DNA from: a virus
Virus record (IMG/VR): IMGVR_UViG_3300050033_000401
Coordinates: 1-35,549 of that record
Strand: one strand, 5' to 3'
Length of the DNA: 35,549 nucleotides
Shown here one piece after another: positions 760-35,549 of this stretch. A program made the translations under genes and the position numbers. Numbering within the stretch: position 1 is the stretch's first letter; the number at the start of each line of letters is the position of its first letter. The notes beneath the pieces were generated by a model, which did no database searches, was not told the origin of the DNA, and worked only from the letters and a program-made list of their open reading frames with translations.

Positions 760-1625
760 CCAAGCTAATTTATTTGAAGGGGTTACCCGCATCCGGGAAG
801 AGTACTTGGGCTATCGAACAGGTAAAGAAATCTAATGGACATACCAAGCGACTCAATAAAGACGACCTCCGCTCTCTACTTGATGCCGGTATTTATAGCC
901 GCGTTAATGAACATTTTGTTGTCAAGACTGAACATGAAATGTCAATTGGGATTCTAGCAGCCGACCACAACTTAATCATAGATAATACTGGATTCAACGC
1001 TACCCACGAAGACTACTATCGTGAACTTGCTAAGCAATTCGAAGTTGAGTTTGATGTCAAGTTCATCGATACTCCATTAGATACCTGTATCGAACGTGAT
1101 GCCAAGCGCCCTAACCCAGTCGGTGAAAAGGTCATCCAGAAGATGTACGACCAGTATCTAAAACCAAAGGGTGCCCAAGCTGTCCACATCATGGCTCCGT
1201 ACATCAAGCCAGCTGATAAACCCAGGGCTATCATTTCTGATATCGATGGTACGCTGGCTCACTTTGCAGGCCGTAGTCCGTACGACTATAGTAAGGTTAG
1301 CGAAGACACAGTCGACGACACCGTGAGGGATATTGTAGCTAACTATGAGCACTCACATCGAGTAATTCTCATGAGTGGACGACCCGAGAGTTGCCGTCAA
1401 GCTACTGAGGTTTGGCTTAACTCAAATAACATCTACTATGATGACTTATTTATGCGCCCAACAGGTGACAGCCGCAATGACGCTATCATTAAGCAGGAGT
1501 TATTCGATGAGCATGTCCGCAATAACTACCAGGTTGATTTTGTCCTAGACGACCGCGACCGAGTAGTCAACACATGGAGATCAGCCGGCCTGAAAGTACT
1601 TCAGGTTGCTCCGGGGAATTTCTAA
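756..1625 (+). CDS. pnk: Polynucleotide kinase/phosphatase (T4 Pnk type)
   Basis: Bifunctional RNA end-healing enzyme: an N-terminal P-loop kinase phosphorylates 5'-OH ends and a C-terminal HAD-type phosphatase removes 3'-phosphates or 2',3'-cyclic phosphates, leaving ends a ligase can join. The P-loop GLPASGKST is at residues 9-17, the HAD nucleophile motif DIDGT at 162-166, and the later HAD motifs appear as MSGRP and a DDRDRVV segment near the end. At 289 residues it is close to T4 Pnk (about 300) and seems intact. It starts at ATG 756, inside the stop of the ligase gene, and ends in TAATG that starts the next gene. Adjacent ligase and kinase, as in T4-like RNA repair, support the function. 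Confidence 0.93.
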   Translation: MTKLIYLKGLPASGKSTWAIEQVKKSNGHTKRLNKDDLRSLLDAGIYSRVNEHFVVKTEHEMSIGILAADHNLIIDNTGFNATHEDYYRELAKQFEVEFDVKFIDTPLDTCIERDAKRPNPVGEKVIQKMYDQYLKPKGAQAVHIMAPYIKPADKPRAIISDIDGTLAHFAGRSPYDYSKVSEDTVDDTVRDIVANYEHSHRVILMSGRPESCRQATEVWLNSNNIYYDDLFMRPTGDSRNDAIIKQELFDEHVRNNYQVDFVLDDRDRVVNTWRSAGLKVLQVAPGNF

Positions 1626-1933
1626 TGGTATGGCGTCCAGGTAATAACAAAGCGAAAGTCATGGCATCAGCCCACCCAAGTTTTGAGATTGTCTACCACC
1701 GCCTATGTCCATTTTGCCTAGACACAGCACCCGATGATGACCACCACTGTGCCGGCAGTGACGTTGTAGTAAACGAACTCCGCAATCGCCTAGACGATGA
1801 ACGCGAGCTACAAGACAAGCTGCCATTAGCGTATTGTACCCACGATGATATACTTGCTCGTCGCCCCAAATATCTATTAAAGAACGCTGAGCGTTTGGCT
1901 CGGAGGAGTAGACATAATGACACCCACAAATAA
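1625..1933 (+). CDS. Small Cys/His protein, unknown function
   Basis: 102-residue protein not recognised as a known family. It contains CPFC followed after about ten residues by HHC (near residues 27-42), a possible zinc knuckle, then a charged helical half rich in Arg, Glu and Asp. The frame is open further upstream to 1574, but that would overlap the kinase by 50 bases; the ATG at 1625 overlaps the kinase stop as TAATG, the junction used repeatedly in this genome, and is the better start. It overlaps the Fic gene by 17 bases. Its place between kinase and Fic gene suggests co-transcription with the RNA repair set. Zinc binding is inferred from spacing only. Confidence 0.7.
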   Translation: MVWRPGNNKAKVMASAHPSFEIVYHRLCPFCLDTAPDDDHHCAGSDVVVNELRNRLDDERELQDKLPLAYCTHDDILARRPKYLLKNAERLARRSRHNDTHK

Positions 1934-2420
1934 ACACATCCTCCATATGCTACGGGAAAGTAACGCCATCGAGGGTGAGTTTAGCCGTAACTCCTTGATA
2001 GATTCCCACCGTGCCTGGAAGTATATCATGCAGTTTGATGAGTTAAATAATAATATTATTAAGGAGACCCACCGCCTGCTAACCTGTCGCCTATTGGCAC
2101 GTAAGTATGCCGGCGACTGGCGTGACTGCCCTGTCACTATCGGCCGAGTTGTTAAATGGCAGCCTAAGATAGTTATAGATAGTCAGATGCGTGACTACTG
2201 CGCTAAGTTATCGGCCTCTAAGACTGGCTATGATGCTATCGCCCTGCACTTAGAGTTCGAATCTATTCATCCATTTATAGATGGCAATGGGCGGATGGGC
2301 AGAATACTAATGAACTGGCGTCAACTTAAGAGCGGGTTTCCACTAATAGTATTTGATGCTGCCACTAAGTATGAAGTCTATTACCCATTATTCCATAACG
2401 ATAGCCAGCTCGATGGCTAG
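1917..2420 (+). CDS. Fic-domain protein (probable AMP/NMP-transferase)
   Basis: 167-residue Fic protein. The core motif HPFIDGNGRMGR at residues 118-129 matches the family consensus HxFx(D/E)GNGRxxR exactly, including the catalytic His and the phosphate-binding Gly-Asn-Gly-Arg. Fic enzymes usually transfer AMP or another nucleotide monophosphate to a protein hydroxyl group. An (S/T)xxxE(G/N) inhibitory motif is present as SNAIEG at residues 15-20; in the family this glutamate blocks the active site, so the protein looks like a self-inhibited (class II-like) Fic enzyme and not the toxin half of an antitoxin-dependent pair. A strong GGAGGAG lies about ten bases before ATG 1917. It sits in the RNA repair operon. 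The target (host translation factor, defence protein or another) cannot be read from the sequence. Confidence 0.88.
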   Translation: MTPTNKHILHMLRESNAIEGEFSRNSLIDSHRAWKYIMQFDELNNNIIKETHRLLTCRLLARKYAGDWRDCPVTIGRVVKWQPKIVIDSQMRDYCAKLSASKTGYDAIALHLEFESIHPFIDGNGRMGRILMNWRQLKSGFPLIVFDAATKYEVYYPLFHNDSQLDG

Positions 2421-2670
2421 CATCAACGTTGATTACTCGCCCGACGATCCCAATGCCCTACACTACATTGAGTTCGACCCCAAGACCGATATCTATAGTT
2501 TTAATCTGCCACTACCGTTTGATAAGCGGGAGTCACTCGACCCCCTCAAGCACCAGTTGTACCAACATCTAGTCCAGGAGTTGGTAGATAGGATAGCCCC
2601 TGATTACTTAGAGCAAACTGGTTTTGAACTTATGCAATACAAACTGGTAATCGTAAAGTTTGGCGACTAG
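2413..2670 (+). CDS. Hypothetical protein, 85 aa
   Basis: Unrecognised 85-residue acidic protein. The frame is open to a TTG at 2353, but that would run 68 bases inside the Fic gene; the ATG at 2413 overlaps the Fic stop by only eight bases and is preferred. The first half reads as beta-strand-like with many Asp and Pro; the second half contains a likely amphipathic helix (Leu-rich, around residues 45-65). No motif allows a function. It ends the first plus-strand transcription unit, just before a promoter at 2676-2703. Confidence 0.65.
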   Translation: MASINVDYSPDDPNALHYIEFDPKTDIYSFNLPLPFDKRESLDPLKHQLYQHLVQELVDRIAPDYLEQTGFELMQYKLVIVKFGD

Positions 2671-2675
2671 TAGAA

Positions 2676-2703
2676 TTGATATATCCTGAGCTTTTGGTAT
2701 ACT
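2676..2703 (+). promoter_or_regulatory. Sigma70-like promoter with extended -10
   Basis: -35 TTGATA at 2676-2681, a 16-base spacer, then TATACT at 2698-2703 preceded by TGG, which makes an extended -10. The expected transcription start, six to eight bases after the -10, falls at about 2709-2711, on the ATG of the next gene, so the transcript may be leaderless or nearly so. Confidence 0.7.
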
Positions 2704-2710
2704 ACATGGC

Positions 2711-3100
2711 ATGATAACCATAATCCAAATGATAGGTTTCGTTATAGTGATGTATATCATCTATTCTGTTATCCGTACCCCTTGTGACTACGATAGGCCA
2801 GGGATGGATATACCATTCGCTAAGCGCCAGGCTTGGTGGGATGACTTGCACGGCATAGTTGAGACTGACGACACTACCTACGCTCGGCTGACTGAGCTGG
2901 TATATACTAATGTATCTGACGCCAAGATAGACGAGCTGAGGTGGGTCAATGACATGCTAGTTGACGCTCCGAGTGTAATCGACGCCGTTCAAGCAGTCAA
3001 AGCCCATGCCGCCCAAATAGATCATTTCAAAAACATCAAAAAAGTAAACGAGTTAGAACATGATACCAGCAAAATCAATAGGAATTACCCAACCAGCTAA
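2711..3100 (+). CDS. Single-pass membrane protein, unknown, 129 aa
   Basis: Residues about 3-20 form one strongly hydrophobic segment (Ile/Val/Met-rich) with almost nothing in front of it, followed by a charged, mainly helical domain of about 105 residues. This predicts a protein anchored in the inner membrane by its N-terminus. No catalytic motif was recognised. The ATG at 2711 directly follows a strong promoter and has no ribosome binding site in front of it. The 3' end overlaps the predicted start of the nucleotidyltransferase gene by 41 bases. A phage membrane protein expressed from its own promoter could take part in exclusion or membrane takeover, but that is speculation. Confidence 0.75.
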   Translation: MITIIQMIGFVIVMYIIYSVIRTPCDYDRPGMDIPFAKRQAWWDDLHGIVETDDTTYARLTELVYTNVSDAKIDELRWVNDMLVDAPSVIDAVQAVKAHAAQIDHFKNIKKVNELEHDTSKINRNYPTS

Positions 3101-3761
3101 ACCTACGATGATTATCCTTGAGGGTATCACCGGCAGTCGCGCCTACGGACTCGACAATAAGGATAGTGACACAGACATCAAGGGCATCTATGTTGCCCCA
3201 ACTCGTGACATCTTAGGTCTATTTAAGACCCGCGAAACTTACGACCACGTTGACCCTGACTGGGTATACCACGAGGTGGGTAAGTTCATCGAGCTAGCTC
3301 TTAAGGGTAACCCGACTATCCTAGAGATGCTTTTCCTTGAAGGCTACACTCAGCTAGCCCCACTTGGCAAGTATCTAGTCGATAACCGCCATCTATTTCT
3401 AAGTGATAACGTCAAGAACTCCTATGGTGGCTACGCTTTCCATCAAGTATCGGCTCTCAACGCCCGCCAGTACGGCTTTGGCCACGGCCGCAACAAACGC
3501 TACGAGAAACACGCCCGACATTGCTTCCGTCTACTACTTCAGGGCCGCCAGCTATTAGAGAGCGGTACACTACAGGTTAGGGTGACACCAGAGCAGCGCG
3601 AGGAGCTGTTCGCCGTTGGTAAGTTGCCGGTTAGCGACCTAGTGACAAAATTTACCGATGAGTATAACCATTTCCGGGATGTAACATCAGTGCTACCACC
3701 CAACCCAGACAAAGATGGTGTCAACAAGATACTACTTAAGATTCGGAAGGGCAACTGGTGA
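3060..3761 (+). CDS. Predicted nucleotidyltransferase (YcgL/COG3541-like)
   Basis: Pol-beta-superfamily nucleotidyltransferase. The family signature is present: Gly-Ser at residues 25-26 followed by RAYGL and the acidic pair D37-x-D39, then a helical C-terminal part of about 130 residues. Family members are found in bacteria and large phages; their substrates are not well established. The ATG at 3060 overlaps the previous gene by 41 bases; an alternative ATG at 3108 starts just before the conserved strand and avoids the overlap, and neither has a good ribosome binding site, so the first 16 residues are doubtful. The stop overlaps the next gene as GTGA. It lies next to RNA ligase, Pnk and CCA enzyme, as if part of nucleic-acid end processing, but no substrate can be named. 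Confidence 0.85.
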   Translation: MIPAKSIGITQPAKPTMIILEGITGSRAYGLDNKDSDTDIKGIYVAPTRDILGLFKTRETYDHVDPDWVYHEVGKFIELALKGNPTILEMLFLEGYTQLAPLGKYLVDNRHLFLSDNVKNSYGGYAFHQVSALNARQYGFGHGRNKRYEKHARHCFRLLLQGRQLLESGTLQVRVTPEQREELFAVGKLPVSDLVTKFTDEYNHFRDVTSVLPPNPDKDGVNKILLKIRKGNW

Positions 3762-4066
3762 TTAGCGAGATACTAGAACCACTTGATCGCCTGGCTACCG
3801 AGCTACTACAGGAGGACGACGCCCACCGCTCCCACTTCGTACGTTACTCGGATGAGGACATAGTTAGTGCTGTATTAGTCTTCCAGCACGTCCTAGGGAA
3901 TCGAGCAGCTTGGTATTATATCGACATGCACGACCCCAACCGCTCTGACATTGATACCAACCAGATTGCCACCGATTTAGGCACAGGAATCAGCGACCTA
4001 GTTATGAAGATGGCTAATTTTGACATTAAAAAACACTACGCCGAGTCGGCTACTTACGAATCTTAA
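3758..4066 (+). CDS. Hypothetical protein, 102 aa
   Basis: Unrecognised acidic, probably all-helical protein. It starts with GTG at 3758, overlapping the nucleotidyltransferase stop by four bases, so translation is likely coupled and the two products may act together. No cysteine motifs, signal peptide or membrane segment are visible. It is the last gene before the promoter of the CCA-type enzyme. Confidence 0.7.
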   Translation: MISEILEPLDRLATELLQEDDAHRSHFVRYSDEDIVSAVLVFQHVLGNRAAWYYIDMHDPNRSDIDTNQIATDLGTGISDLVMKMANFDIKKHYAESATYES

Positions 4067-4074
4067 AAATACCA

Positions 4075-4102
4075 TTGACTTCTATCTAGCTACAGTTATA
4101 AT
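4075..4102 (+). promoter_or_regulatory. Strong sigma70-like promoter for CCA-type gene
   Basis: -35 TTGACT at 4075-4080, 16-base spacer, perfect -10 TATAAT at 4097-4102. The predicted start near 4109 gives a leader of about 28 bases before ATG 4137, with no clear Shine-Dalgarno sequence. Confidence 0.8.
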
Positions 4103-4136
4103 GATAACCAATAGCCATAAACAAGATATACATAGC

Positions 4137-5099
4137 ATGGATAAAACCAAATTACTTATTGCCCAAGTCGAGGAGATTATTTCCCCAGTCTACTTAGTTG
4201 GCGGTTCGGTTCGTGACATGTTGCTTGGCCGCAAGCCTAAGGATTTCGATTTTACTACCCCTATGTCACCAGATGACGTCGAGGCTCGGGTGAAGGCGAC
4301 TGGTCACCGGGCTTACTCCATTGGTAAGCGCTTTGGTACGATTGGGTTTAAACTCAACGGCAACTACGTTGAGGTAACTACCTTTCGTCAGGAGAGCTAC
4401 ACGCCCAACAACCGTAAACCCCAGGTCAAATTCGTCGTTGACCTACGTGACGACCTATCCCGCCGTGACTTCACTATCAATGCTATCGCCTTGTCCTCGG
4501 CTAGCGAATACTTTGACCCGTTTAGTGGCCGACTGGATATCATCGCCCGTAAAATCAAAGCTGTTGGTAGCCCACGGCAACGTTTCACCGAAGACCCCCT
4601 AAGAATGTTGCGAGCCGCTCGCCTAGCCTCCCAGCTAGACTTCGAAGTCGACCCTAACTTGATAGGCTACATGCGTAAGTGTGCGCCTTTAATCTTGTCC
4701 GTCGCTCGTGAGCGCTGGGTTCAGGAGATGGATAAACTACTGCTGTCACCGTCACCCATGCGTGGCCTAGAGATATTAGTTCAGACTAGAGTAATGGACT
4801 ACATGATACCATCGCTGTCGGTAGTTTTAAGTACCCCCCGAGCTGAACGCCTGGCACTTGACTTGCGAGATGCTCCCTTGAATGCCGACACTAGGTGGGG
4901 AGTGCTGTTGTCCTACATCGGCCATGCCTACGATACCGATACCACCCCTAAGAATGACTACCTTAAGGTCGGACTTGGTATGGCTGTTGGTACCGGACTA
5001 TACCTTAGGTTCTCCAACGACCGCATGGATGAGGTCAACTCCATCTTCCGCTTAAAATCAGTTGGCTATTACCTTAGGAGCCAGCAGGATGAAGCCTAG
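4137..5099 (+). CDS. cca: tRNA nucleotidyltransferase / poly(A) polymerase family (CCA-adding type)
   Basis: Class II CCA-adding/poly(A) polymerase-type enzyme, expected to build or repair the 3' CCA end of tRNA. The head domain shows GGSVRD at residues 22-27 and the catalytic pair D37-F-D39, then a beta-rich part ending in RRDFTINAIAL, DPFSGRLDI and the neck motif EDPLRMLRAARLA. At 320 residues it is shorter than many cellular enzymes (about 400) and no HD phosphohydrolase domain is visible. The frame is open back to a TTG at 4020, but the ATG at 4137 lies downstream of a strong promoter and starts the conserved fold, so it is preferred. Template-independent poly(A) addition cannot be excluded from motifs alone. 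Confidence 0.9.
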   Translation: MDKTKLLIAQVEEIISPVYLVGGSVRDMLLGRKPKDFDFTTPMSPDDVEARVKATGHRAYSIGKRFGTIGFKLNGNYVEVTTFRQESYTPNNRKPQVKFVVDLRDDLSRRDFTINAIALSSASEYFDPFSGRLDIIARKIKAVGSPRQRFTEDPLRMLRAARLASQLDFEVDPNLIGYMRKCAPLILSVARERWVQEMDKLLLSPSPMRGLEILVQTRVMDYMIPSLSVVLSTPRAERLALDLRDAPLNADTRWGVLLSYIGHAYDTDTTPKNDYLKVGLGMAVGTGLYLRFSNDRMDEVNSIFRLKSVGYYLRSQQDEA

Positions 5100-8809: not shown

Positions 8810-8972
8810 TGATATTACGCTTAAACTTGTTAACTTTGGTAACGATTTTACCATACCAGTTCGTTGTCGCCCGTGAGGGTATGACGTCTTCGATTAGTTT
8901 CGGCCACTGCCGACGTTGTTGTCGTTTCTTGGTTGATATACCAACGGTTACTGAGAAATCAGGTTTACGCAT
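8802..8972 (-). CDS. Very basic 56-aa protein
   Basis: Short open frame, below the usual length cut-off. It begins at ATG 8972, which overlaps the stop of the HNH gene as TAATG, exactly as at many real junctions in this genome, and ends at TAA 8804-8802 inside a hairpin. The product has about 15 Lys/Arg among 56 residues and only three acidic residues, with a basic stretch near residues 15-21, so nucleic-acid or membrane-surface binding is plausible. No family recognised. Alternatively a fortuitous frame, but coupling and charge argue for a gene. Confidence 0.55.
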   Translation of the reverse strand: MRKPDFSVTVGISTKKRQQRRQWPKLIEDVIPSRATTNWYGKIVTKVNKFKRNIRQ

Positions 8973-9496
8973 TATATTTGGTCAACCTCTCCGGCTATTA
9001 AGCCATTATCTATTATTAGGTCGGCACTAGCATTGGCGACTACATCATCTAGGATATACCCAGTCAGGATAAACCGCTTGCAAGACTCGAGAGCGTCACC
9101 GATGTGGTGGATGCCACGCGCCTTGCTTCTATGGTCGATGTCACACAGTACCAACATGTTCTTAGGTGAGTCGATGAAGTTATTCAGACTCTTGCGGTCA
9201 GTTACCTCGGGATATTCCTTACCAACCTTGATTGGATCGATGGCATCAGCGAACTCACGTTGTAGCGGCCAGTGGTGGGTTTCGAGTTGTTTAGCCCCCA
9301 GGGGGTTAGCTATTGGGTCGGATAGTGTCGACAGCCGAACACCACAATCCCGACAGGGCATGTCGAGGATGTGGGTCAGCAGTTTGTGGGTGGCGTTATA
9401 TTCGGGTGTCGAGGCTCGGGGTGGGTGAGCCGGGTAGAACAGGTCAAGGTTTTTAGTCTCGCTGTCGCTTTGGGCATGGGTCGGAACTTCTTCCAT
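8972..9496 (-). CDS. HNH endonuclease-like protein
   Basis: 174 residues from ATG 9496. The core shows CxxC at Cys48/Cys51, His74-His75, then Asn113, Cys118 and His122 in an NMLVLCDIDH segment, the order expected for an HNH nuclease with a zinc-binding scaffold. A TTG at 9511 is in frame further upstream, but the ATG at 9496 overlaps the amidase stop as TAATG and is preferred. The gene lies inside the lysis cluster between amidase and a small basic protein. It may be a free-standing homing-type nuclease or a packaging-linked HNH protein; the sequence does not decide. The core motifs are less canonical than those of the two other HNH genes here. Confidence 0.7.
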   Translation of the reverse strand: MEEVPTHAQSDSETKNLDLFYPAHPPRASTPEYNATHKLLTHILDMPCRDCGVRLSTLSDPIANPLGAKQLETHHWPLQREFADAIDPIKVGKEYPEVTDRKSLNNFIDSPKNMLVLCDIDHRSKARGIHHIGDALESCKRFILTGYILDDVVANASADLIIDNGLIAGEVDQI

Positions 9497-10488
9497 TATT
9501 GTTTTCGGCAACCACCGGCCCAGAAGTAATTACCACGAACTGATTTATACCACAGGTTAGTAGTGACACCACCTTGGCTGACGTTCTCACCACCTACCTC
9601 AGAAGCATAGGTCACGACGTTACCGGCGTGGAGCATGCCATCTGGCGTATTAGCTTGACCACCCAGTGCGCCCGTAGATGGTTCTTTCCGAACATTTAGG
9701 GTAGCGAATGTCACCACGACCGTACCACCTTGGGCTTGAGCAACCTGAGCGGGAGCTGGAGCGTGATTCCAGTTAGTGTTGGCGGCCCAGACCCAGTGCC
9801 CGTTCCAGGCTTTTAGCCAGACATTACGGCCGTCACCATAAGGGTCTTGTCCGATGGTGTAGCCGACGATATCGATGACTGCACCAACGGCGTTAGAGCC
9901 AACTGGAGTATTACCAGCGGTTGTAGCTACGGTACGTACATTAGCTGTACTGGTAACGGTAACTTGGCCAGTCCAGTTGACGACGTTATCACCAACAGCG
10001 GGTGGAGGTGTGACAGACGGCTGGGCAATAACGTTAGCACCACCTAGCTCTTGAGCGGCCATATTAACAAGGCGCTCGATGTCAACCGTACCACAACATT
10101 GGGTTGATACCACTTGAGAGTGTTTAAGTATGTGAGCACGGTCACACGGAATGCCAAATTGCTTACAGACTTGAGCGATGCGAGCGGCGCTAGTAACGTA
10201 AGTAGCGTCGGAGGCTAGGCGGCTAGGGTCAGCGGAGTGTTCGAAACCAACCGAGCGCAGGTTCATATTCCAGTCACCGGCATGCCAGGCGGTGTTATTC
10301 CAGTCAACGTATTGGTGATCGTTGCTATCTTCAAAGCCATCGTGGGCAGAGGTTTGGCGAACAGTATTTTGGAAAGTTGTGTCAGCGCTAGCTAGGGTAC
10401 CGTCCATCCAGTGCACGATAATGCGGTCGACTTTAGTACCACTACGTCCGGCAGTAAAGTTTGGTGATCCGATTTGTGTTAATGTCAT
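9496..10488 (-). CDS. Endolysin: N-acetylmuramoyl-L-alanine amidase with two SH3b domains
   Basis: Peptidoglycan hydrolase that cuts the bond between N-acetylmuramic acid and L-alanine to release phage. The catalytic Amidase_2 domain spans about residues 10-155. Zinc ligands by analogy with T7 lysozyme are His26 (IIVHW), His123 (LKHSQ) and Cys131, with a conserved Glu in the FEHS segment. Two bacterial SH3 domains follow, about residues 170-245 and 252-330, separated by an Ala/Pro linker, and probably bind the cell wall. There is no signal peptide, so release should need a holin. The total of 330 residues is normal for a modular endolysin. GGA lies close before ATG 10488. The modular layout favours a host with an accessible wall. 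Confidence 0.9.
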   Translation of the reverse strand: MTLTQIGSPNFTAGRSGTKVDRIIVHWMDGTLASADTTFQNTVRQTSAHDGFEDSNDHQYVDWNNTAWHAGDWNMNLRSVGFEHSADPSRLASDATYVTSAARIAQVCKQFGIPCDRAHILKHSQVVSTQCCGTVDIERLVNMAAQELGGANVIAQPSVTPPPAVGDNVVNWTGQVTVTSTANVRTVATTAGNTPVGSNAVGAVIDIVGYTIGQDPYGDGRNVWLKAWNGHWVWAANTNWNHAPAPAQVAQAQGGTVVVTFATLNVRKEPSTGALGGQANTPDGMLHAGNVVTYASEVGGENVSQGGVTTNLWYKSVRGNYFWAGGCRKQ

Positions 10489-10511: not shown

Positions 10512-11222
10512 TTACGGTGTGGCTGGTGGTGTCGTTAGGTCGACTGGGTTAGGGCAGGTAGCCGGAGCGACAATAGTATATTGATTACGGTAGGCACTGT
10601 CGGGTTCGTTGACGTACTTCCAAGCCTCGTACTCAGTTGGGACGGCGTTGACTGTCCGAGTGACACAGGAGAAGAAAACAGCTGGAGCCGCTGGCCCAAC
10701 TGGACCGACTGCACCATTCGCGCCATCTGCGCCAGCTAAGCCCATTGGACCCTGGCATAACATACTGAAACAATAAGCCGTAACGGCTGCTGCAGTTTGA
10801 GCATCAGTGGCCGACAGCCCAGGAATACCTTGGATACCTTGTAATCCCTGGATACCAGCTGTGCCTTGAACGCCCTGTAGACCAGCTAACCAGGCTACGG
10901 TTGAACCCGCATAGCCATGGTCTTGAGCTAATTGATAGGCTGATTCACCATCGCTACCTTGTGCACCCCGGAATGGGATAGGTATTAGGGATAACAGCCA
11001 GTCGGTTTCGTTGCCCTTGTAGCCATGAGCGACGGCAATTTGGTAGGCACTCTTGCCGTTAGCACCAGGGGTAGGAGTAATAGTCGTCCCTCCAAGGTTA
11101 TAATTCTGGCCCCGAGCGGACAGCGTCGATATGGTTGAGATATTAGTATAGGTTAACCACCCAAGTAAACAGATAACTGCTACTAGCATAGTTGGGAATA
11201 TATATTTTCGAAGTCGTTTCAC
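10512..11222 (-). CDS. Membrane-anchored collagen-like protein
   Basis: 236 residues. A basic start followed by a hydrophobic span (about residues 10-27) forms a signal anchor. The outer part has two copies of a module beginning (K/E)SAYQxAxxHGY and ending in a Trp-Leu segment (around residues 55-75 and 92-112), each followed by Gly-x-y collagen-like repeats (about 113-135 and 158-180). The final 50 residues contain three Cys. The SAY-type modules followed by collagen repeats are common in phage and bacterial surface fibres. It starts with GTG, overlapping the previous stop as TAGTG. It lies between the endolysin and coiled-coil proteins, so it may be displayed on the host envelope or link lysis and tail genes. 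Confidence 0.75.
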   Translation of the reverse strand: MKRLRKYIFPTMLVAVICLLGWLTYTNISTISTLSARGQNYNLGGTTITPTPGANGKSAYQIAVAHGYKGNETDWLLSLIPIPFRGAQGSDGESAYQLAQDHGYAGSTVAWLAGLQGVQGTAGIQGLQGIQGIPGLSATDAQTAAAVTAYCFSMLCQGPMGLAGADGANGAVGPVGPAAPAVFFSCVTRTVNAVPTEYEAWKYVNEPDSAYRNQYTIVAPATCPNPVDLTTPPATP

Positions 11223-16311: not shown

Positions 16312-16989
16312 TTACGTTTTAATCAGGTATTGGCAAACTGAATATGGTTGGAGGTTATTATGTGCCCCACCGGACCCGGCATTTTGTATCGAAATATTTG
16401 ATCCATTCCATGTTGTCTGGGTTGTTCCCCAGGTAATTTGCTGAGCTGAGCCAGATAAAGTAAGCCTATTTGTGCTACTACCAGAGGTAATAGCTGGTTG
16501 TGCACCCGAGATACTATCGTGGTTATGGCCAGGGTCATTAACACCATGGTAGTGAACTGGCATTTCGCTCCAAGATAATGTGTGGTTAGTTTCGCCACCG
16601 ACTTGGCCGAGAGTTGCAAAGTTGGTGTCACCGGCGTTGAGGCCGACCGGAACACGACTCTGGAAAGTCGGTAAATTAAAGGTGGTCGTACCGTTACCGA
16701 CACCGTAAGTAGTACCAATAAGGGCGTAGAGAACGTTGTAGGTAGTACGGCTAACAGCTGACCCATCACATATCAGCCACTGGGCGCTTGGTGCGGCTGA
16801 GGCGGCATACATATGGATTGTACCGGTTGGTATCATGTCGGTCTGGATATGTCGCCAGAGAATAATGCTATCGTTAAAACCTAGTCCAGTATTAAAAGAC
16901 CCGTCATTTAGACCAAGTAAATTCCATTTCGTAGTAGTAGGCTGTTCGCCAACTGTGACGCTCCATGTCGTATATCCTGAACTTGGCAT
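16312..16989 (-). CDS. Tail fibre, shared anchor plus phage tail collar domain
   Basis: 225 residues. The shared anchor covers about residues 1-50. The middle (about 55-120) is a phage tail collar domain: PTGTIHMYA, WLICDGSAVSRTTY, LYALIGTTYG, then a FNLPTFQSRVP segment, which is the family signature. The C-terminus has His-rich HNHDS and a closing Gln-Tyr-Leu-Ile segment as in short tail fibres. It probably forms a trimeric receptor-binding fibre. The start at ATG 16989 is 14 bases from the previous stop. Confidence 0.85.
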   Translation of the reverse strand: MPSSGYTTWSVTVGEQPTTTKWNLLGLNDGSFNTGLGFNDSIILWRHIQTDMIPTGTIHMYAASAAPSAQWLICDGSAVSRTTYNVLYALIGTTYGVGNGTTTFNLPTFQSRVPVGLNAGDTNFATLGQVGGETNHTLSWSEMPVHYHGVNDPGHNHDSISGAQPAITSGSSTNRLTLSGSAQQITWGTTQTTWNGSNISIQNAGSGGAHNNLQPYSVCQYLIKT

Positions 16990-27802: not shown

Positions 27803-28138
27803 CTACTGGTCTGGTGTCGCTTTAGGTTGTTCGGTTAACAAGACCTCGAGGTGGCTGACAAGGTTGCCATAGTCACGATTCATTGATCCTGTTACGTTGT
27901 AGCGCTTACCGGTCTGGTCAATAATATAGTCGCTAATCTGGATATCAGCCCCCGACTTGAAGTAACCGTTGTAGGTACGACCGTAGGCCATGTTGGTTGT
28001 CGAATAGAACTCGGCAATCACCGGCTGGATTAAACAAGCCAACCCAGTTTCAACCTGTTGGTAAGCGCTTTTCCAACCCGTCGTGGCGGTATTGCGGTAG
28101 ACGCTGGCGACGTGGGTGAATTTATCATCCAGAATCAC
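27803..28138 (-). CDS. Head closure/stopper candidate, 111 aa
   Basis: Beta-rich protein with a central hairpin and DIQISDYIIDQTGKRYNV, the sort of segment seen in small SPP1 gp16-like closure proteins. It starts with GTG at 28138 overlapping the previous stop (TAGTG). The position after the connector and before the gp10-like gene supports the call; no exact family was recognised. Confidence 0.65.
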   Translation of the reverse strand: MILDDKFTHVASVYRNTATTGWKSAYQQVETGLACLIQPVIAEFYSTTNMAYGRTYNGYFKSGADIQISDYIIDQTGKRYNVTGSMNRDYGNLVSHLEVLLTEQPKATPDQ

Positions 28139-28836
28139 TAGACGACTCCGACGTTGCGTTTCTTATAGACGTTCAAAACACCAAGGCAGTCTGGGTTAGA
28201 GTGCAACGCCGCCCGAACATTGGTCTGGAAGTCAACTTCCATATCACCGACCTTCTCGCGCTTGACGCCGAGGTTTTTACGCAGGGTGTAGAGTGATAGA
28301 CAGATGTCTAGGCAGGCCAAAGCTATCTCTGGGGGCACACCATAGACGCCGTAGTGGTACTTAACGCTAATAGTCTGGTAACCAGACGCAATCGTGCCAA
28401 AGAAGCTAGGAGAGTCCCCAGACCAGGCGTTAGAGTCATAGCTGTTAAAGTAATTACCACCGAGGACGATTCGGCCGTCGTCACGCCAGACGTATTCAGC
28501 TGAATTGAGTACCGTCCATGAGTTCATGGTCGAAATACCGAGCTTTAGCTCATCAATGCTAGCAATATCTGTGTTGTAAAGGTATAGTAACTTGCCCGCA
28601 TAACCGTCGTATAGCTCTCCATTGAGTTTTCCCTCCTGTGTTGTTATATCATTGTAAGCCGAAGTGATAGTGTTGTCGGTTGGATCACCCCAGCCGAATG
28701 TTCGTTTGGTATAGCGGTCTATAAAAGCCATCACTTTTGGAATAAGCAATTTAATATAGATATCCTCGGATGAGTCGACAATGCCTAGGTAGGCACGGAC
28801 TTCCTGGTATGTAACGTAGGGTTGTTGTGTTGGCAT
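28138..28836 (-). CDS. Head-tail connector (adaptor, gp6/gp15-like)
   Basis: 232 residues. The N-terminus VTYQEVRAYLGI, DIYIKLLIPKVMAFIDRYTKR is the typical start of head-tail adaptor proteins, followed by a beta insert (about 55-155) and a C-terminal helix region with PPEIALACLDICLSLYTLR. These rings join the portal to the closure protein. The beta insert makes it longer than many relatives (about 100-150 residues). Start ATG 28836 after an A-rich leader. Confidence 0.8.
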   Translation of the reverse strand: MPTQQPYVTYQEVRAYLGIVDSSEDIYIKLLIPKVMAFIDRYTKRTFGWGDPTDNTITSAYNDITTQEGKLNGELYDGYAGKLLYLYNTDIASIDELKLGISTMNSWTVLNSAEYVWRDDGRIVLGGNYFNSYDSNAWSGDSPSFFGTIASGYQTISVKYHYGVYGVPPEIALACLDICLSLYTLRKNLGVKREKVGDMEVDFQTNVRAALHSNPDCLGVLNVYKKRNVGVV

Positions 28837-29272: not shown

Positions 29273-29301
29273 ATTATACAAGGATTAAATCTGCGGGTCA
29301 A
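29273..29301 (-). promoter_or_regulatory. Near-consensus sigma70 promoter for neck and tail genes
   Basis: Minus strand: TTGACC (29301-29296), 17-base spacer, perfect TATAAT (29278-29273). Predicted start near 29266, leader of about 20 bases with GGAG before ATG 29245. The -35 overlaps the stop codon of the homing endonuclease gene. Confidence 0.8.
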
Positions 29302-30032
29302 ACATCAGCCGGTATGACGATATCAGACTTGCCAAGGTATTTAATCTCGGCGTTACGACGAACGATTGTTGCTTCGGCTAGAGTTGGATGCGTACCGAGG
29401 TAGATAACTTTACCCTCGACAGTAAGGGTTGCTTGCCACTTACCACTTGATTTGTGGTAGCCAACACCGACCACGCCAGACTTATTATTGCTTTGGTGAT
29501 GGTTATAGATTTTAGTATGCGGTATTGGGGTGATATTGCGCCAATTAGGTATACGGTTAAAGGAAGCAAATTCACCAAATTGTTCTAAGGCGGCATGGTT
29601 ATAGGCAATGGCGCAATCTAGCTCAGTATCAAATGTACCAAGACCGAGTGCCTTGCCTACAGATTTAATCCGACACCACCACACCTTATACCGAGCGTCA
29701 TAGTAGCATCCTTTGAAGGTAGACTTATGGGTATTGCGACTATTTTCTGCCTGCGACGCTGGCCGCAAGTTTGATTCTTGATTATCTACCGTCAGTCCAT
29801 TTTTATGATCTATTATCACCCCTGGACTAGCGTTCATAATAAGTCGGTGCATGCGTACTTCTTTTCTATCTTTGCCAATCCATATATATGCAACGGAATA
29901 TATCATATCGCTACTTCCTGATATCTTAGCGTACCAAGTAAATCGACTGAGGAATGGATATATGTCATTATCTACTAATGCGAATTCGTATATACCAACG
30001 GCATTTTTACCATGTAGTTTTATCTTTTTCAT
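29298..30032 (-). CDS. HNH homing endonuclease with two AP2 domains
   Basis: 244 residues. The HNH core (about 55-90) contains MHRLIMN, IIDHKNGLTVDNQESNLR and ENSRNTHKS, a strong match to phage homing endonucleases. Two AP2-type DNA-binding modules follow, about 95-145 (GCYYDARYKVWWCRI, AIAYNHAA) and about 188-235 (GVGYHKSSGKWQATL). AGGAGG precedes ATG 30032. It sits after the terminator of the capsid gene and before a promoter that restarts the operon, as expected for an invader tolerated by the late genes. The last bases hold the -35 of that promoter. Confidence 0.92.
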   Translation of the reverse strand: MKKIKLHGKNAVGIYEFALVDNDIYPFLSRFTWYAKISGSSDMIYSVAYIWIGKDRKEVRMHRLIMNASPGVIIDHKNGLTVDNQESNLRPASQAENSRNTHKSTFKGCYYDARYKVWWCRIKSVGKALGLGTFDTELDCAIAYNHAALEQFGEFASFNRIPNWRNITPIPHTKIYNHHQSNNKSGVVGVGYHKSSGKWQATLTVEGKVIYLGTHPTLAEATIVRRNAEIKYLGKSDIVIPADV

Positions 30033-30118: not shown

Positions 30119-31231
30119 CTAGGCTACAACAGCGGTGAGTTGAGCAAATGCGTCTACGGCAGCAAGCTGACCGTCGAGGCGTTCGCCCACTTTGACAGCA
30201 GCCCTGTGTTGAGCAAAGCTTGTACCTTCTTGTGTCGATACTTCAGAGAAGATACTTTCACGGTCACCAACTAGGTAGTAGCTGAGGTCGCCAAAGTAGA
30301 TTTCAGAAGCATTTGTACCACCACCAAGGTTAGTAGGGATGTCGTTCTGAACTAGAACTGGCTTGCCAAGAAGCGTAGGGGTTGTACCCTCAGTCGTAAG
30401 AACTTGTCCGTAACCCTCTTCGTAAAGGTAACGACCGGTTGTGTCCTTCAAGCGACGGATGACTGCAAGAGTCGCGTCGTTGATGATCCAAACTGGCTTA
30501 CCGATTTGACGATACTGGTAAGGAAGCGCGTGGTACAGGTTGATTAGGTCGTCACCAACAAGGTGAGCGCCGGCCTGTGCGATTGTGTGAGTGAACGTGT
30601 ACTGACGGATACCCTTTGGTTGACCAGTTCCTGAACCAATCATGAAGGCAGTATCTTCTGAGCGACCGATAGCGGCAGCAAATCGTTGCATAATCCAGTC
30701 GGTTAGGTTCTGGTTGATAGCAGAATCAGATAGGATTTGGCGTGACATACGGGAGATACCAATCAGGTTGTTAGCGTTAAGGATAACTTCGCCGAAGATT
30801 GGGTCACTTTGGGTGATGGTAGCAAGCTCAGCAGTCCAGTTAGCGTTAACGGTGCTGGTCTCAACAGGGACCTGCAAGCTGTCGCTGCTCATTGGAAGAA
30901 CAGTAGCGTAGGCACGGATGACGGGTAACTTGTAAAGCAATTCAATCAGTGTTGAACTGAACTCTAGTGGTACCAGGTAACCACCACCATCAGAGGCAGT
31001 ACCAAGGTCTTTAAGGACAGCGGAGTCATTCTCAGCCATTCCACGAAGGAAGGCACCAATGACGGTCTTAGTTGCTTTAGGGTCTTTACGGTGTGGGGCG
31101 TCGGCTAGCTTGTCGTCAAAGATAGCTTTCTTGATTTCAGCAGCTTCGTCAGCAGATTTTGCAGTTTTGACTGCTTCAGCAGCTTCACGAGCAGCGGCGA
31201 CAGCGGCGGATTTGATTTCTTCGAGTGTCAT
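30119..31231 (-). CDS. Major capsid protein (HK97 fold)
   Basis: 370 residues. The first 70 are a helical, Ala/Lys-rich region that the prohead protease probably removes. The mature part begins near GGGYLVPLEFSSTLIELL and shows family features: ANWTAELATITQSDPIFGEV (E-loop and following strand), FMIGSGTGQPKGI and the C-terminal P/A-domain strands ending in AVDAFAQLTAVVA. This is the shell protein of the icosahedral head. It is followed by a strong terminator and preceded by the protease gene. No promoter was clear directly upstream, so it is probably read from the protease promoter at 32990-33018. Confidence 0.95.
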   Translation of the reverse strand: MTLEEIKSAAVAAAREAAEAVKTAKSADEAAEIKKAIFDDKLADAPHRKDPKATKTVIGAFLRGMAENDSAVLKDLGTASDGGGYLVPLEFSSTLIELLYKLPVIRAYATVLPMSSDSLQVPVETSTVNANWTAELATITQSDPIFGEVILNANNLIGISRMSRQILSDSAINQNLTDWIMQRFAAAIGRSEDTAFMIGSGTGQPKGIRQYTFTHTIAQAGAHLVGDDLINLYHALPYQYRQIGKPVWIINDATLAVIRRLKDTTGRYLYEEGYGQVLTTEGTTPTLLGKPVLVQNDIPTNLGGGTNASEIYFGDLSYYLVGDRESIFSEVSTQEGTSFAQHRAAVKVGERLDGQLAAVDAFAQLTAVVA

Positions 31232-31292: not shown

Positions 31293-32936
31293 CTATTCGG
31301 CTTTGCGAATTAGCTCTAGCTCGGCGTTTACAGCTCGGACTACTTCTTCAGCTTGCTCATCAGTGAGGTTGTTTGGGTCAATTACTTCACCCTTTTCCTC
31401 TTGGTCTGCACCGTCGTCAACATCAGTCGCCGACTTAACTTCGCCCTGCTCGCCAGCTTTGTCGCTGTCTTCACTAACTTCTTTGTTAGAATCTTCTTCA
31501 ACTGCTGAATCAACAACAGGTTCTGCTTTAGCACCGTCCTCTTCTACAGGGGCAACGGCGACTACTTCAGGTGTCACTGGGGCTACTGGTGCAACTGGAG
31601 CGACTGGTTCAACAGGCGGAACAGTTTGGTCACCGGCAACGGCCGCGACTGGTTCAACAACTACGTTAGCATCCTTTTTGGAGACTGACTTTCGTTGATC
31701 TTCGTCATCGCTGGTAGTAGAACCATCTGCTTCCATACCGAGCATTTGCTCGACGGTTTTCAGGTGTGCCTGCATTTCTGCGTGCATTGCCTTGAGGGTA
31801 TCCTTCTCTGAATCAGATAGGGTGGCCTTGGTTTTTTCTACTAGAGCATCTTTTTGACTTTTTGTCATATCCTTATTATCGGTGGGTTCTGACGTTTTTG
31901 TCAACCCCTCACCGTCCTTGGCCAATTGCTTGTCCTTGATGAACTCAATCATGGCCTTAACTTTGTCTTTATCAACACCATCTTGAAGGGCGTGCATGAC
32001 TGGGCCGAGCTGGTCAACAGCTGTCTCACCATCGTCATCATCAGGCACGACTACATCACCGGCTGCTACTTGCATAAATAGGTTAGCTAGCTCGTTTAGC
32101 AGGACTGGGAAGTCAGCAACAGCTGTCTCACCGTCATACCAGACGTCCTGGAATGCCCACCAGATGTCATAAACCTGCTCCATTAATTCCCATTTGACTT
32201 CAGCACTGGCTTCTTTATCTAGTTCGTCGGCAATAGCGCCCTTTTTGAGTTGTTTTTTCACGTGAATATCTTCCTTTTCAATGGTTGATGTCTTATTAAT
32301 TGCTTGGTCAAGGGCTTTGGTAGCGGCGGTCATCTTAGAGCGTAGGCTTTTGGCTTGCTTCTCACTAATAACGTCCATCTTGTAGGCCAGTGCTAGAGCT
32401 TGAGGGTTGGCAGGTACGACTACGGCTGAAATTTCCAGCAGCTCAGCGCTAGTAAAGGTATAACCCTCCTGCCAGTTACCGTCGGCCTCTAGGGGAATAA
32501 ACCCGACCGAGAAGGCGAATAGGAAACCGTTGCGGTATAGATTCCAAACCGTGTCAGCTAGATCGTACAGACCCTCGGGTGGGGCTTGGTAGACAAATTG
32601 AAGTTGACCTTTATCGTTAACACCGATTTCAATCGCTCGTCCGACTGGTGGGGTGTTGTAGTCATGTGCCCATGGAATAACTGGGTTGGCGATGAAGTTA
32701 TCAAGAATCCAACCAGACTGGTCAACCGAATCACCCTGGCGATCAACAACGGATGTTGAACCGACAGCCGTAAAGGTGCGGGCTTCATCATCAAACGTAC
32801 CGATTTTAAATGTAATTTGCTGGAACTGTTTAGTTTCAGACTTCAGTTCAGTCTGGGCTTGGCCAGCTGCTTTTTGCTGCCACCATTCGGCCTTATTCTG
32901 CCGATGGATTGCGGCGACGGTCTTCGTCATTGTCAT
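31293..32936 (-). CDS. Prohead protease (S78-like) with long acidic, scaffold-like tail
   Basis: 547 residues, more than twice the length of ordinary HK97 prohead proteases. The protease domain covers about residues 40-190 with DRQGDSVDQSGW, the putative catalytic His91 in PWAHDY, Ser143 in FSVGF and Glu168 in ELLEIS, then VVVPANP. After about residue 210 comes a helical, Asp/Glu-rich region (to about 420), then a Pro/Val/Ala stretch (PVAPVAPVAPV) and a final acidic helix. The extra part probably acts as an internal scaffold, as no separate scaffold gene is visible. GGGAAATAAAC precedes ATG 32936; a second in-frame ATG lies two codons later. Confidence 0.9.
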   Translation of the reverse strand: MTMTKTVAAIHRQNKAEWWQQKAAGQAQTELKSETKQFQQITFKIGTFDDEARTFTAVGSTSVVDRQGDSVDQSGWILDNFIANPVIPWAHDYNTPPVGRAIEIGVNDKGQLQFVYQAPPEGLYDLADTVWNLYRNGFLFAFSVGFIPLEADGNWQEGYTFTSAELLEISAVVVPANPQALALAYKMDVISEKQAKSLRSKMTAATKALDQAINKTSTIEKEDIHVKKQLKKGAIADELDKEASAEVKWELMEQVYDIWWAFQDVWYDGETAVADFPVLLNELANLFMQVAAGDVVVPDDDDGETAVDQLGPVMHALQDGVDKDKVKAMIEFIKDKQLAKDGEGLTKTSEPTDNKDMTKSQKDALVEKTKATLSDSEKDTLKAMHAEMQAHLKTVEQMLGMEADGSTTSDDEDQRKSVSKKDANVVVEPVAAVAGDQTVPPVEPVAPVAPVAPVTPEVVAVAPVEEDGAKAEPVVDSAVEEDSNKEVSEDSDKAGEQGEVKSATDVDDGADQEEKGEVIDPNNLTDEQAEEVVRAVNAELELIRKAE

Positions 32937-33028: not shown

Positions 33029-33358
33029 TTATACAATTCCGCTGACCTCTATAGTAACGTCCGAGGTTTCAACCGAGCTATCGGCATAGGTAATTCGAAT
33101 GTTAGCGTCATAGATACCCTCAACTGGAGTATCACCAGTCACCCAGGCATAGCTAACAATCCCATTAGGTGCGTCGGTAATCGTGCAGAGCGTGTGGGCT
33201 GTATTTGTCCGCAGGGTCGTCATCGGGTTCTGTATGTAGAAGTTAACCGTACAACCGGTCAGGTTGATGGCGCTAGCTCCTGCGCGAGCGATCGTAAACT
33301 TCACCGCTGGGGCAGTGTCATTTACAAAAGTATATATAATGGGCGGTGTCGAGTTCAT
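33029..33358 (-). CDS. BppU N-terminal-like Ig protein, 109 aa
   Basis: Single beta-sandwich domain with the pattern of the BppU/DUF2479 N-terminal family: FVNDTAPAVKFTI, LTGCTVNFYI, GIVSYAWVTGDT, EGIYDANIRITYADSSVET. In lactococcal phages this domain anchors fibres to the baseplate. Here it stands alone, directly after the long repeat fibre gene, so it may connect that fibre to the virion. Start ATG 33358 after GGAAACAAAA. Confidence 0.75.
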   Translation of the reverse strand: MNSTPPIIYTFVNDTAPAVKFTIARAGASAINLTGCTVNFYIQNPMTTLRTNTAHTLCTITDAPNGIVSYAWVTGDTPVEGIYDANIRITYADSSVETSDVTIEVSGIV

Positions 33359-33390: not shown

Positions 33391-35547
33391 TTATTGCTCG
33401 GTTATTGATATGGTGGCGCTATCGAGGGTCACGGTGGCTTGTTTGACGGGTAGGCTTAGGCATACGTTGCTAGTGTTTGGCAGGCTTACGTTAATGACCT
33501 GACTAGCTGGAAGTTGGATTTGGATTTGAGGGTTGCCTAGGGTGATATCAACCTTGACGACAACCGATGGGATGATAGAGGCGGTGGCTGTTTGGGTCTT
33601 GGTTAGGTTCTTCTCAATATGAGCTAGGCTAGTCTGGGTCTTATAGAAAGTTTGACCAACCGCTAACTGGGTCTTGGTCTTGTTGGTGGCAATCCGAGCG
33701 ATAGCCGTCTGGGGTTTGATGACAGCCAGAGCGATGCGACCTAGAGCTAGCTGATTCTTGCTCAAATTAGCAGCGACTCGTCCAACCGCCGGTTGAGTCT
33801 TGATTGTCGTCTGAGCAATCCGACCTAGGGCCGGTTGAGTTTTAGTAAAGTTGCGACTAATTCGACCGATTGCAGTTTGGGTTTTAGATAGGTTAGTGGC
33901 TACCCGGCCGATAGCGGCCTGGGTCTTAGTGCGGTTGTTAGCTATTCGGGCTGTAGTCGACTGGGTCTTGCTGACCGTGCCAGCAATCCGTCCGATAGCT
34001 GGTTGAGTTTTAACAACGACCGCCTTGATATGAGCCGTGGCTGTCTGGTTCTTAGTAGCTATCGAGCTGTTAACCACATTAGCTACAGCCGACTGGGTCT
34101 TAGTAAGATTCTTGGCAACTCGTCCCACGCTCGATTGGGTCTTAGTTAGGTTATTGGCAACTCGAGCAATGGCAGGTTCAGTTTTAGTAAGATTCTTGGC
34201 AACTCGTCCAACCGCTGATTGAGTTTTGGTACTGGCGGTGGCGATACGGGCAACACTAGTTTGGGTCTTGCTACCTGGTAGAACGATCCGGGCGATAGAG
34301 GACTGTGTCTTTGACGTTGCTTGAGCGATTCGGCTAGTGACTGACTGCGCCTTAGTCACATTACCGGCAACCCGACCAGTAGCAGACTGTGTCTTGGTGA
34401 CAGTCTTGGCAATCCGTCCGATAGCGCCCTGGGTCTTGGTAAAGTTAATGGCTATGCGGCCAATAGATGACTGAAGCTTAGTTGGGGTAGCGATGATTCG
34501 GCTGACTACAGTTTGGGTCTTAGTTAGGTTGACAGCAGCCCGAGCAATAGCCGTTTGGGTCTTAGTCCGGATTGACGATGTGATGATATTCGCTACAGCC
34601 GACTGAGTCTTGGTAATAGTTTTAGCAACTCGAGCTACTGCCGTTTGGGTCTTGCTTGGTGTAGCTACGATCCGAGCAACAGTAGATTGGGTTTTGGTGA
34701 CATTAACAGCGACCCGCCCGATTGCGGTTTGGGTTTTTGTTTTAATAGAGGCGGTAACGATGTTAGCGATTGCGGATTGAGTCTTGCTGGAATTGTTAGC
34801 AATGCGTGCAATTGATGTCTGAGCCTTGGTTGATATTAAGGCGACTCGAGCAATCGCTGTTTGAGTAACTGCCTTATTCAGGGCTGTACGACCAGTAGCA
34901 GTCTGTGTCTTGGTAGTAACCTTAGCTACTCGAGCGACTGCTGTCTGAGCCTTAGTTAGGTTGATGGCCGCCCTAGCGATAGCGGTCTGGGTCTTGGTGC
35001 TAGTCTTAGCAATTCGACCAATAGATGATTGCGTCTTGGTGCTAATTGTCGCAACTCGAGATACCGCTGTCTGCGTTTTGGTAGGTACAGCTGAAATCCT
35101 AGCGATAGATGTTTGCGTCTTGGTGCCAGTTTGCCCAACGCGAGCTGTAGAGGTCTGGGTTTTAGTCCCACCGAATGTTCCGTAGACAAAACCATTATAG
35201 AAAGTTGATAGGTCAGTGTAACTTTGTCGCTTAGTACGGTATTGAGCCGAGCCGGTGGCCAGGGCTACGGTTGAACCGAACCACTCTTCCTGGAACATAC
35301 CATCGCGGTCATCGGCGACGTTACTGACCCCGGTGGTGTCGTGGGTGCTGTTGTTACCCATCTTCCACCACTCATCGGCGAATTCAAATAGGAAGTGACC
35401 AGATACGACCGACAGGTAAGACTCAGCCTCTTTAGATAGGGCGAGGTTGCGACTTGACTGGCCAGATTGATCCTCAGCTGGCACGGTCGAGTTATAGTCA
35501 TCGAAGCCGTACTCGGTAATGATAAGTGGTCGAGTAGTAGCACTCAT
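33391..35547 (-). CDS. Long repeat fibre with glycoside-hydrolase-like N-terminal end, possibly 5'-partial
   Basis: 718 residues in the window. Residues 1-125 resemble the last part of a TIM-barrel glycoside hydrolase: LIITEYGFDDY (Glu12 at the place of a nucleophile), FLFEFADEWWK, HDTTG, then FQEEWFG. The beginning of the barrel is absent, and the ATG lies two bases from the window edge, so the gene may start further right. Residues about 129-662 are 38 tandem units of mostly 14 residues with consensus TKTQ(T/S)A(I/V)(A/G)R(I/V)A-x-N-(L/x). The last 56 residues form a beta-rich end domain with one Cys. Probably a fibre or surface filament; enzymatic activity is unproven. Confidence 0.8.
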   Translation of the reverse strand: MSATTRPLIITEYGFDDYNSTVPAEDQSGQSSRNLALSKEAESYLSVVSGHFLFEFADEWWKMGNNSTHDTTGVSNVADDRDGMFQEEWFGSTVALATGSAQYRTKRQSYTDLSTFYNGFVYGTFGGTKTQTSTARVGQTGTKTQTSIARISAVPTKTQTAVSRVATISTKTQSSIGRIAKTSTKTQTAIARAAINLTKAQTAVARVAKVTTKTQTATGRTALNKAVTQTAIARVALISTKAQTSIARIANNSSKTQSAIANIVTASIKTKTQTAIGRVAVNVTKTQSTVARIVATPSKTQTAVARVAKTITKTQSAVANIITSSIRTKTQTAIARAAVNLTKTQTVVSRIIATPTKLQSSIGRIAINFTKTQGAIGRIAKTVTKTQSATGRVAGNVTKAQSVTSRIAQATSKTQSSIARIVLPGSKTQTSVARIATASTKTQSAVGRVAKNLTKTEPAIARVANNLTKTQSSVGRVAKNLTKTQSAVANVVNSSIATKNQTATAHIKAVVVKTQPAIGRIAGTVSKTQSTTARIANNRTKTQAAIGRVATNLSKTQTAIGRISRNFTKTQPALGRIAQTTIKTQPAVGRVAANLSKNQLALGRIALAVIKPQTAIARIATNKTKTQLAVGQTFYKTQTSLAHIEKNLTKTQTATASIIPSVVVKVDITLGNPQIQIQLPASQVINVSLPNTSNVCLSLPVKQATVTLDSATISITEQ
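33562..35163 (-). repeat. Tandem 42-base repeats inside fibre gene (about 38 units)
   Basis: In-frame units of about 42 bases coding 14 residues, occasionally 16. They start at the KTQ of residue 129 and end at residue 662 of the fibre protein. The units have diverged in DNA sequence but hold the Lys, Gln, Arg and hydrophobic positions, so selection acts on the protein. Confidence 0.9.
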
Positions 35548-35549
35548 AA

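Follow-up and report, generated by a model that had tools for sequence, protein, structure and literature searches.

A long array of 14-residue repeats joined to a glycosidase-like domain: a candidate virion fibre of uncultivated tailed phages

Results

The repeat gene and its neighbours

The stretch of DNA analysed here (the window) is a whole IMG/VR record, 35,549 bases long and linear by its classification, the right end of which is the contig end. An open reading frame of which 718 residues are in view (33391-35547 (-)) enters from this right end and is open there. As the contig ends inside the gene, its 5' part and the complete barrel of its enzyme-like domain lie off the contig. Three parts were distinguished in the product. 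Residues 1-127 (35167..35547 (-)) make up a glycosidase-like part, delimited by Bacteroidota homologues, their alignment, profile matches and a homologue in phage L252. The array of 38 repeat units (33571..35166 (-)) was defined by a unit list, the column composition and a family profile from 61 proteins. The last part, about 57 residues and the stop codon (33391..33570 (-)), was assigned from its sequence and from the C-termini of other repeat proteins. It contains several short stretches of beta-like character, each about 10 residues long (VDITLGNPQIQIQLPASQVINVSLPNTSNVCLSLPVKQATVTLDSATISI). This C-terminal part after the array gave no family match; the C-termini of L253 and L254 resemble it in style when compared by eye.

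Directly downstream of the repeat gene lies the gene of a 109-residue BppU_N-like Ig-fold protein (33029..33358 (-)). With 30.8 bits against a Pfam gathering cut-off of 23.1 for BppU_N, the product is indeed the BppU-like Ig protein that had been proposed at this place from the sequence alone; it also matches the minor tail protein family phrog_3639 (E 2.5e-5). The gene of a head maturation protease (31293..32936 (-); Peptidase_S78 in Pfam, phrog_80) and that of an HK97-type major capsid protein (30119..31231 (-); Phage_capsid, E 3.8e-63) come next, so that the repeat gene does precede protease and capsid genes, as first read. The capsid protein has matches in 452 phage records. A head-tail adaptor is encoded at 28138..28836 (-) (phrog_442, E 1.2e-17). 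The whole downstream order is BppU_N-like protein, protease, capsid, HNH endonuclease, connectors, tail genes and tape measure. The tail of this phage has its own fibre genes, collagen-like and collar, at 10512-11222 and 16312-16989. Neither a terminase nor a portal gene was found among the scanned ORFs of the window (small ORFs lay outside the scan), and both therefore probably lie beyond the right contig end.

Three further features of the window were recorded. The HNH endonuclease gene (phrog_99, 29298-30032 (-)) is inserted between the capsid and head-tail connector genes. The protease ORF at 31293-32936 has a long acidic, Pro/Val-rich C-terminal half, roughly residues 240-547, and judging by this composition it looks as if protease and scaffold were fused. 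At the other end of the window, positions 1-5099 (+) carry an RNA-repair-like set, with homologues in PHROGs of RNA ligase, polynucleotide kinase, nucleotidyltransferase and tRNA nucleotidyltransferase.

A 14-residue unit conserved at the protein level

The sequence-only reading had described 38 copies of a 14-residue unit over more than 530 residues, and the same number was counted, from residue 128 to residue 659. Successive units are 14 residues apart in 33 cases, 16 in three and 11 in one. In the 14-residue consensus, TKTQ[TS]A[IV][AG]R[IV]Axxx, K2 and Q4 are each present in 37/38 units and R9 in 31/38, and position 10 is Ile or Val in 34/38. Over the 11-residue core, the mean pairwise identity between units was 55%. 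At identical four-fold degenerate amino acids, third-position identity was 0.36 versus 0.28 expected. As third codon positions are near random despite the 55% identity of the core, the repeats are not recent DNA duplications. TRF reported one 3-copy stretch only in the array. To judge from its codons, the array is old and maintained by selection at the protein level, with no recent expansion.

The N-terminal part resembles the end of a glycosidase barrel

Residues 1-127 are homologous to the C-terminal third of the barrel in Bacteroidota proteins of about 1,050 residues, which were present in 13/99 genomes sampled; the best of these homologues showed 36-38% identity, with E down to 3.8e-7 per genome. 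The window protein contains the motifs RPLIITEYG.D, with the putative nucleophile, FEFADEWWK and EEWFG, and in the alignment with the Bacteroidota homologues P..TE.G.D, WWK and EEWFG are invariant. When compared with PDB, the profile of the homologues matched GH2, GH158 and beta-galactosidase chains, with modest E values (2e-5 to 0.01). The nucleophile motif TE-x-G is presumably placed near the end of strand beta-7 of the clan GH-A barrel; this putative motif and the conserved C-terminal part of the barrel are both present in the window. The acid/base Glu motif reads LGNENN in the Bacteroidota homologues and FGNETN in phage L252, and its equivalent in the window protein lies off the contig. 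The hydrolase-like TIM-barrel end perceived by the sequence-only reading thus stands on homology, on the invariant motifs and on the profile matches, and by these comparisons the first 127 residues represent the C-terminal part of a TIM-barrel glycosidase that is clan GH-A-like.

A homologous glycosidase was found in phage L252 (E 9.5e-9 to the profile, 33% identity), which shares PLIITE and DEWWK with the window part and exceeds the Pfam thresholds of both Cellulase (GH5) and Glyco_hydro_72. There it is a separate gene, two places after the gene A3 described below, and its N-terminal domain resembles the annotated 'tail fiber' of MW202566.1. When a further glycosidase of the L252 type was searched for, only the record of L252 itself matched.

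The repeat defines a family in uncultivated phages

The family was first searched for at the DNA level, with a pattern of two TKTQ motifs spaced by 42 bases; this yielded one genome bin and some 20 additional viral contigs carrying the repeat. A first profile from these loci comprised 543 units in 22 proteins, in which 450/492 short steps were exactly 14 residues. Proteins were taken as members when at least six units scored with the family profile at a spacing of 14 (or 16) residues. After addition of the loci found via a partner gene, the family comprised 61 distinct proteins of six or more units each, 1,333 units in total, of which 1,113 have another unit at exactly +14. A few genes enter these counts twice, in partial and in full form (L040/L229, L080/L228, L084/L231, L058/L281, L077/L230 and L078/L246), so that the independent repeat genes are somewhat fewer. 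The window protein, with 38 units, is a member by the same definition. When 50 repeat proteins were shuffled five times each, 0/250 sequences reached six in-phase units.

The family consensus is T-[KRQ]-T-Q-[TSP]-[AG]-[VIT]-[AS]-R-I-x-x-T-x, and nearly all the proteins come from uncultivated tailed phages. The usual layout is an N-terminal region of about 15-25 or about 215 residues (sometimes at least twice as long), the array and a short C-terminus. This order of N-terminal domain, repeats and short C-terminus holds nearly always in the family, in agreement with the fibre-like architecture read from the sequence alone. The largest array has 53 units, and copy number varies between close relatives: L262 has 20 units versus 7 in L263, with 75-89% identity outside the difference.

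Some loci carry more than one repeat gene. Two neighbouring ones, with 9 and 28 units, are present at L278:7288-12335 (+), and a second short repeat gene lies beside the first in L053 (2678-3229 (-)) and in L032. In L252 (9928-10898 (+)), two adjacent small genes encode 119 and 204 residues with a near-identical N-terminus, MYGETLTI; both carry the repeat, and the 204-residue product is almost wholly repeat (12 units).

When 84,980 prokaryote species genomes were scanned for the exact pattern, one true family member emerged, on a phage-like contig (L147). The many other pattern matches in genome contigs, from Treponema, Nostoc, Bacteroidota and Bacillus, were other low-complexity repeats. Searches by tblastn of INPHARED phages with the whole ORF and with its N-terminal part returned nothing, and peptide-pattern searches with the window protein or the window capsid yielded no viral relative. 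The repeats of a relative gave one weak match each in phages and plasmids, at 25% identity. Matches of repeat proteins to the Pfam families TarH, EzrA, ERM_helical and HD_3 were dismissed as composition artefacts because they were below or near the cut-offs and located on the repeats. The repeat had no match in Pfam or PHROGs (for the repeat proteins tested) or in isolate phages, and no convincing one in PDB; in the open-access papers searched, the only match to its motif was one unrelated vaccine paper. The family, unfamiliar on first reading, was accordingly unrecognised in each of the libraries searched.

Partner genes and gene order

Many repeat genes are preceded by two partner genes, the first encoding A3, a protein of about 170 residues, and the second A4 or A5, of about 120-200 residues. 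The A3 family (for example L228:5101-5649 (-)) is present in dozens of viral contigs; a scan of IMG/VR gave 97 relatives, of which 80 were kept. In 47/59 A3 loci with at least 3.5 kb downstream, a repeat protein was encoded within eight genes. The repeat genes of L262 (2034-3755 (+)) and L263 (3156-4298 (+)) lie upstream of A3, not downstream. The A3 sequence had no match in PHROGs, Pfam, INPHARED or PDB. Its model is a confident beta-sandwich (pLDDT 94), for which the fold search retrieved common-sandwich matches, mostly pilins (Foldseek E 0.03 at best, VIA Z 6.1), and comparison with viral models gave nothing significant. Kinship of A3 with pilins was not retained, as the Z score is only middling and such matches are typical of a common sandwich fold. 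No A3, A4 or A5 match was found in the window; their expected place is at the very end of the contig, which falls within the repeat gene, so the window virus may or may not have them.

The typical order of the cassette is capsid - A3 - A4/A5 - repeat - head-tail adaptor or tail. In the protease-bearing L228 and L284, it reads protease - capsid - A3 - A5 - repeat - head-tail adaptor, and the adaptor gene directly follows the repeat gene in L080, L284 and L302. In L252 the cassette comprises the glycosidase as a separate gene together with the 119- and 204-residue repeat genes. In the genomes with portal and internal virion proteins (L042, L233, L281 and L289), the order is terminase - portal - ... 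- A3 - A4/A5 - repeat - tail protein; for L042, it is capsid - ... - A3 - A4 - repeat - tail protein. The order of the window itself, repeat - protease - capsid, recurs in L067. The head-side position pointed out by the sequence-only reading is thus shared: in most relatives the repeat gene comes after the capsid gene and before the head-tail adaptor or the first tail genes. As for a capsid-attached head fibre, the gene is encoded beside head genes both in the window and in its relatives.

The product could also be a tail or neck (collar) fibre merely encoded beside head genes, with the repeats as its shaft and a glycosidase acting like a tailspike depolymerase. Attachment at the neck or tail is possible because a tail protein gene comes next in the podovirus-like relatives (directly so in L042, L233 and L281) and because the L252 glycosidase has a tail-fibre-like anchor. 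The BppU_N-like neighbour, whose domain is named after a tail baseplate protein and which also matches a minor tail PHROG, points the same way. However, protease, capsid and connector genes separate the window gene from the tail genes, the window tail has fibre genes of its own, and in L228, L284 and L302 the repeat gene stands between capsid and head-tail adaptor. We consider a tail or neck fibre unlikely on balance, while giving it more weight than any other alternative.

Alternatively, the protein would be secreted or displayed by the host, as a lysogenic conversion or biofilm enzyme, and form no part of the virion. In favour of this, the glycosidase homologues come from bacteria, enzymes that are not virion parts are encoded by some phages and the true start of the gene is off the contig. 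But in the relatives the repeat genes belong to the structural module and share their strand with the capsid and tail genes, and the single true member among the prokaryote genomes is itself on a phage-like contig. These arguments make a secreted protein very improbable.

Fold of the repeat

When nine repeats were modelled as a monomer with AlphaFold2, no confident structure was obtained (mean pLDDT 33) and no helix was predicted. This model is weak evidence against a monomeric solenoid or a long helix, and it is equally compatible with an obligate oligomer and with disorder. By Chou-Fasman, the preference for strand over helix was slight (1.07 v 1.02). With respect to a heptad-based helical coiled coil, comparison of the repeat profile with PDB retrieved coronavirus HR1 and designed helical chains, which were treated as a composition artefact, low-complexity 14-periodic profiles being able to give such matches; Pro or Gly is common at repeat positions 5 and 6. 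The repeat of the triple beta-spiral is about 15 residues long. Gly or Pro was present in the turn region of only 10% of 1,113 family units (7/33 in the window), and the classical signature of that fold is therefore absent.

The repeats might instead be a flexible tether, disordered for the most part, that keeps a glycosidase or lectin at a distance from the capsid, as the low-complexity composition, rich in T, A, K and Q, and the pLDDT of 33 for the monomer would allow. Against this stand the strict phase of the units (1,113/1,333 with the next at exactly +14), the near-invariance of Q, R and I across unrelated phages and the conserved alternative spacing of exactly 16 residues. A tether of this kind appears improbable, and the strict 14-residue spacing makes a periodic fold more likely. 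The sequence-only reading had set its fibre against repeats predicted to be disordered and lacking conservation: conservation proved strong, and the monomer model was devoid of confident structure, as either an obligate oligomer or disorder would allow.

Indications of a host

One family member comes from a Patescibacteria bin, in which a 43-kb phage-like contig carries it together with A3, A4 and a chaperonin gene (L315:9372-10952 (-), GroEL-type, Pfam Cpn60_TCP1, E 5.7e-48). The product of 8972-9511 (-) in the window is 71% identical to a protein on this contig (L314); it also has a weak match to the HNH endonuclease of Burkholderia phage Magia. Among 380 Patescibacteria genomes, no second one had the repeat or a relative of the 8972-9511 product, and a Patescibacteria host is therefore a hint only. 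Some family members may serve phages of episymbiotic bacteria.

Discussion

The long ordered array, the terminal globular domains, the position in the structural module and the recurrent partners lead us to regard the gene product as probably a virion fibre, with a shaft of repeats, a glycosidase domain and attachment near the capsid or head-tail junction. On the sequences compared, the best reading is that the shaft carries exchangeable domains, here a glycosidase. From these features we infer the presence of the protein in virions, its oligomeric state, its attachment site and its enzyme activity.

Such a fibre would join the glycosidase to a long thin shaft of 38 beta-prone repeats; a further anchor domain, off the contig, would probably belong to it, and the small C-terminal beta domain would form its end. 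The shaft would probably form as a homo-oligomer and, as most phage fibres are trimers, a trimer is the likeliest form. From a site near the capsid or head-tail junction, the fibre would reach surface polysaccharide, which the glycosidase would trim, and would keep the particle near the cell while separate tail fibres carry out final recognition.

Fibres are already known; the repeat and its A3 - A4/A5 partners are absent from the libraries searched. Dozens of environmental phages that differ in their capsid and tail genes share the repeat and its partners, and the position of the cassette between capsid and connector genes suggests that long fibres are fixed close to the head in a common way. 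Tentatively, and with more doubt than for the fibre itself, A3 - A4/A5 - KTQ-repeat could be an unrecognised virion module common to unrelated phage backbones, namely a head or neck fibre whose shaft has a new oligomeric beta-fold, adjustable length and fused enzymes or binding domains. The natural 204-residue, 12-unit version of L252 would be a minimal fibre and an easy target for structure determination. A profile of the repeat would annotate many 'hypothetical' virion genes together. The shaft, should it prove to be a new fibrous fold, would also be of interest to protein designers.

Among known systems, the head fibre gp8.5 of phi29 is likewise encoded beside the capsid gene and has an N-terminal part followed by a long fibrous part, but it has 280 residues and a supercoiled helix-turn-helix stem with no such repeat (PMC6542822). 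No sequence match was found between gp8.5 and the repeat protein; gp8.5 is a demonstrated head fibre (PMC6542822), whereas the window protein is a candidate. The triple beta-spiral shafts of adenovirus and reovirus also maintain a short beta-type repeat over a long shaft, but their turns are usually Gly or Pro (PMC7565637), against 10% of units in the present family. Short beta repeats are found too in the beta-bracelet fibre of Orsay virus CP-delta, which is attached to the capsid; this protein of an unrelated virus differs in being pentameric, with five-residue strands and three-residue loops in the pattern (L/V)x2Vx4V (PMC7565637). The N-terminal domain of lactococcal BppU (PF10651) is matched by the 109-residue neighbour product and not by the repeat protein, and it sits in baseplates, whereas the BppU_N-like gene of the window has no adjoining baseplate genes. 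Finally, a glycosidase in a phage virion has a precedent in Gp255 of Bacillus phage vB_BpuM_BpSp, which aids cell entry, the part proposed here for the window domain (PMC4870245). Gp255 is a GH25 enzyme and a separate, baseplate-bound protein (PMC4870245), whereas the window domain is clan GH-A-like and fused to the repeats.
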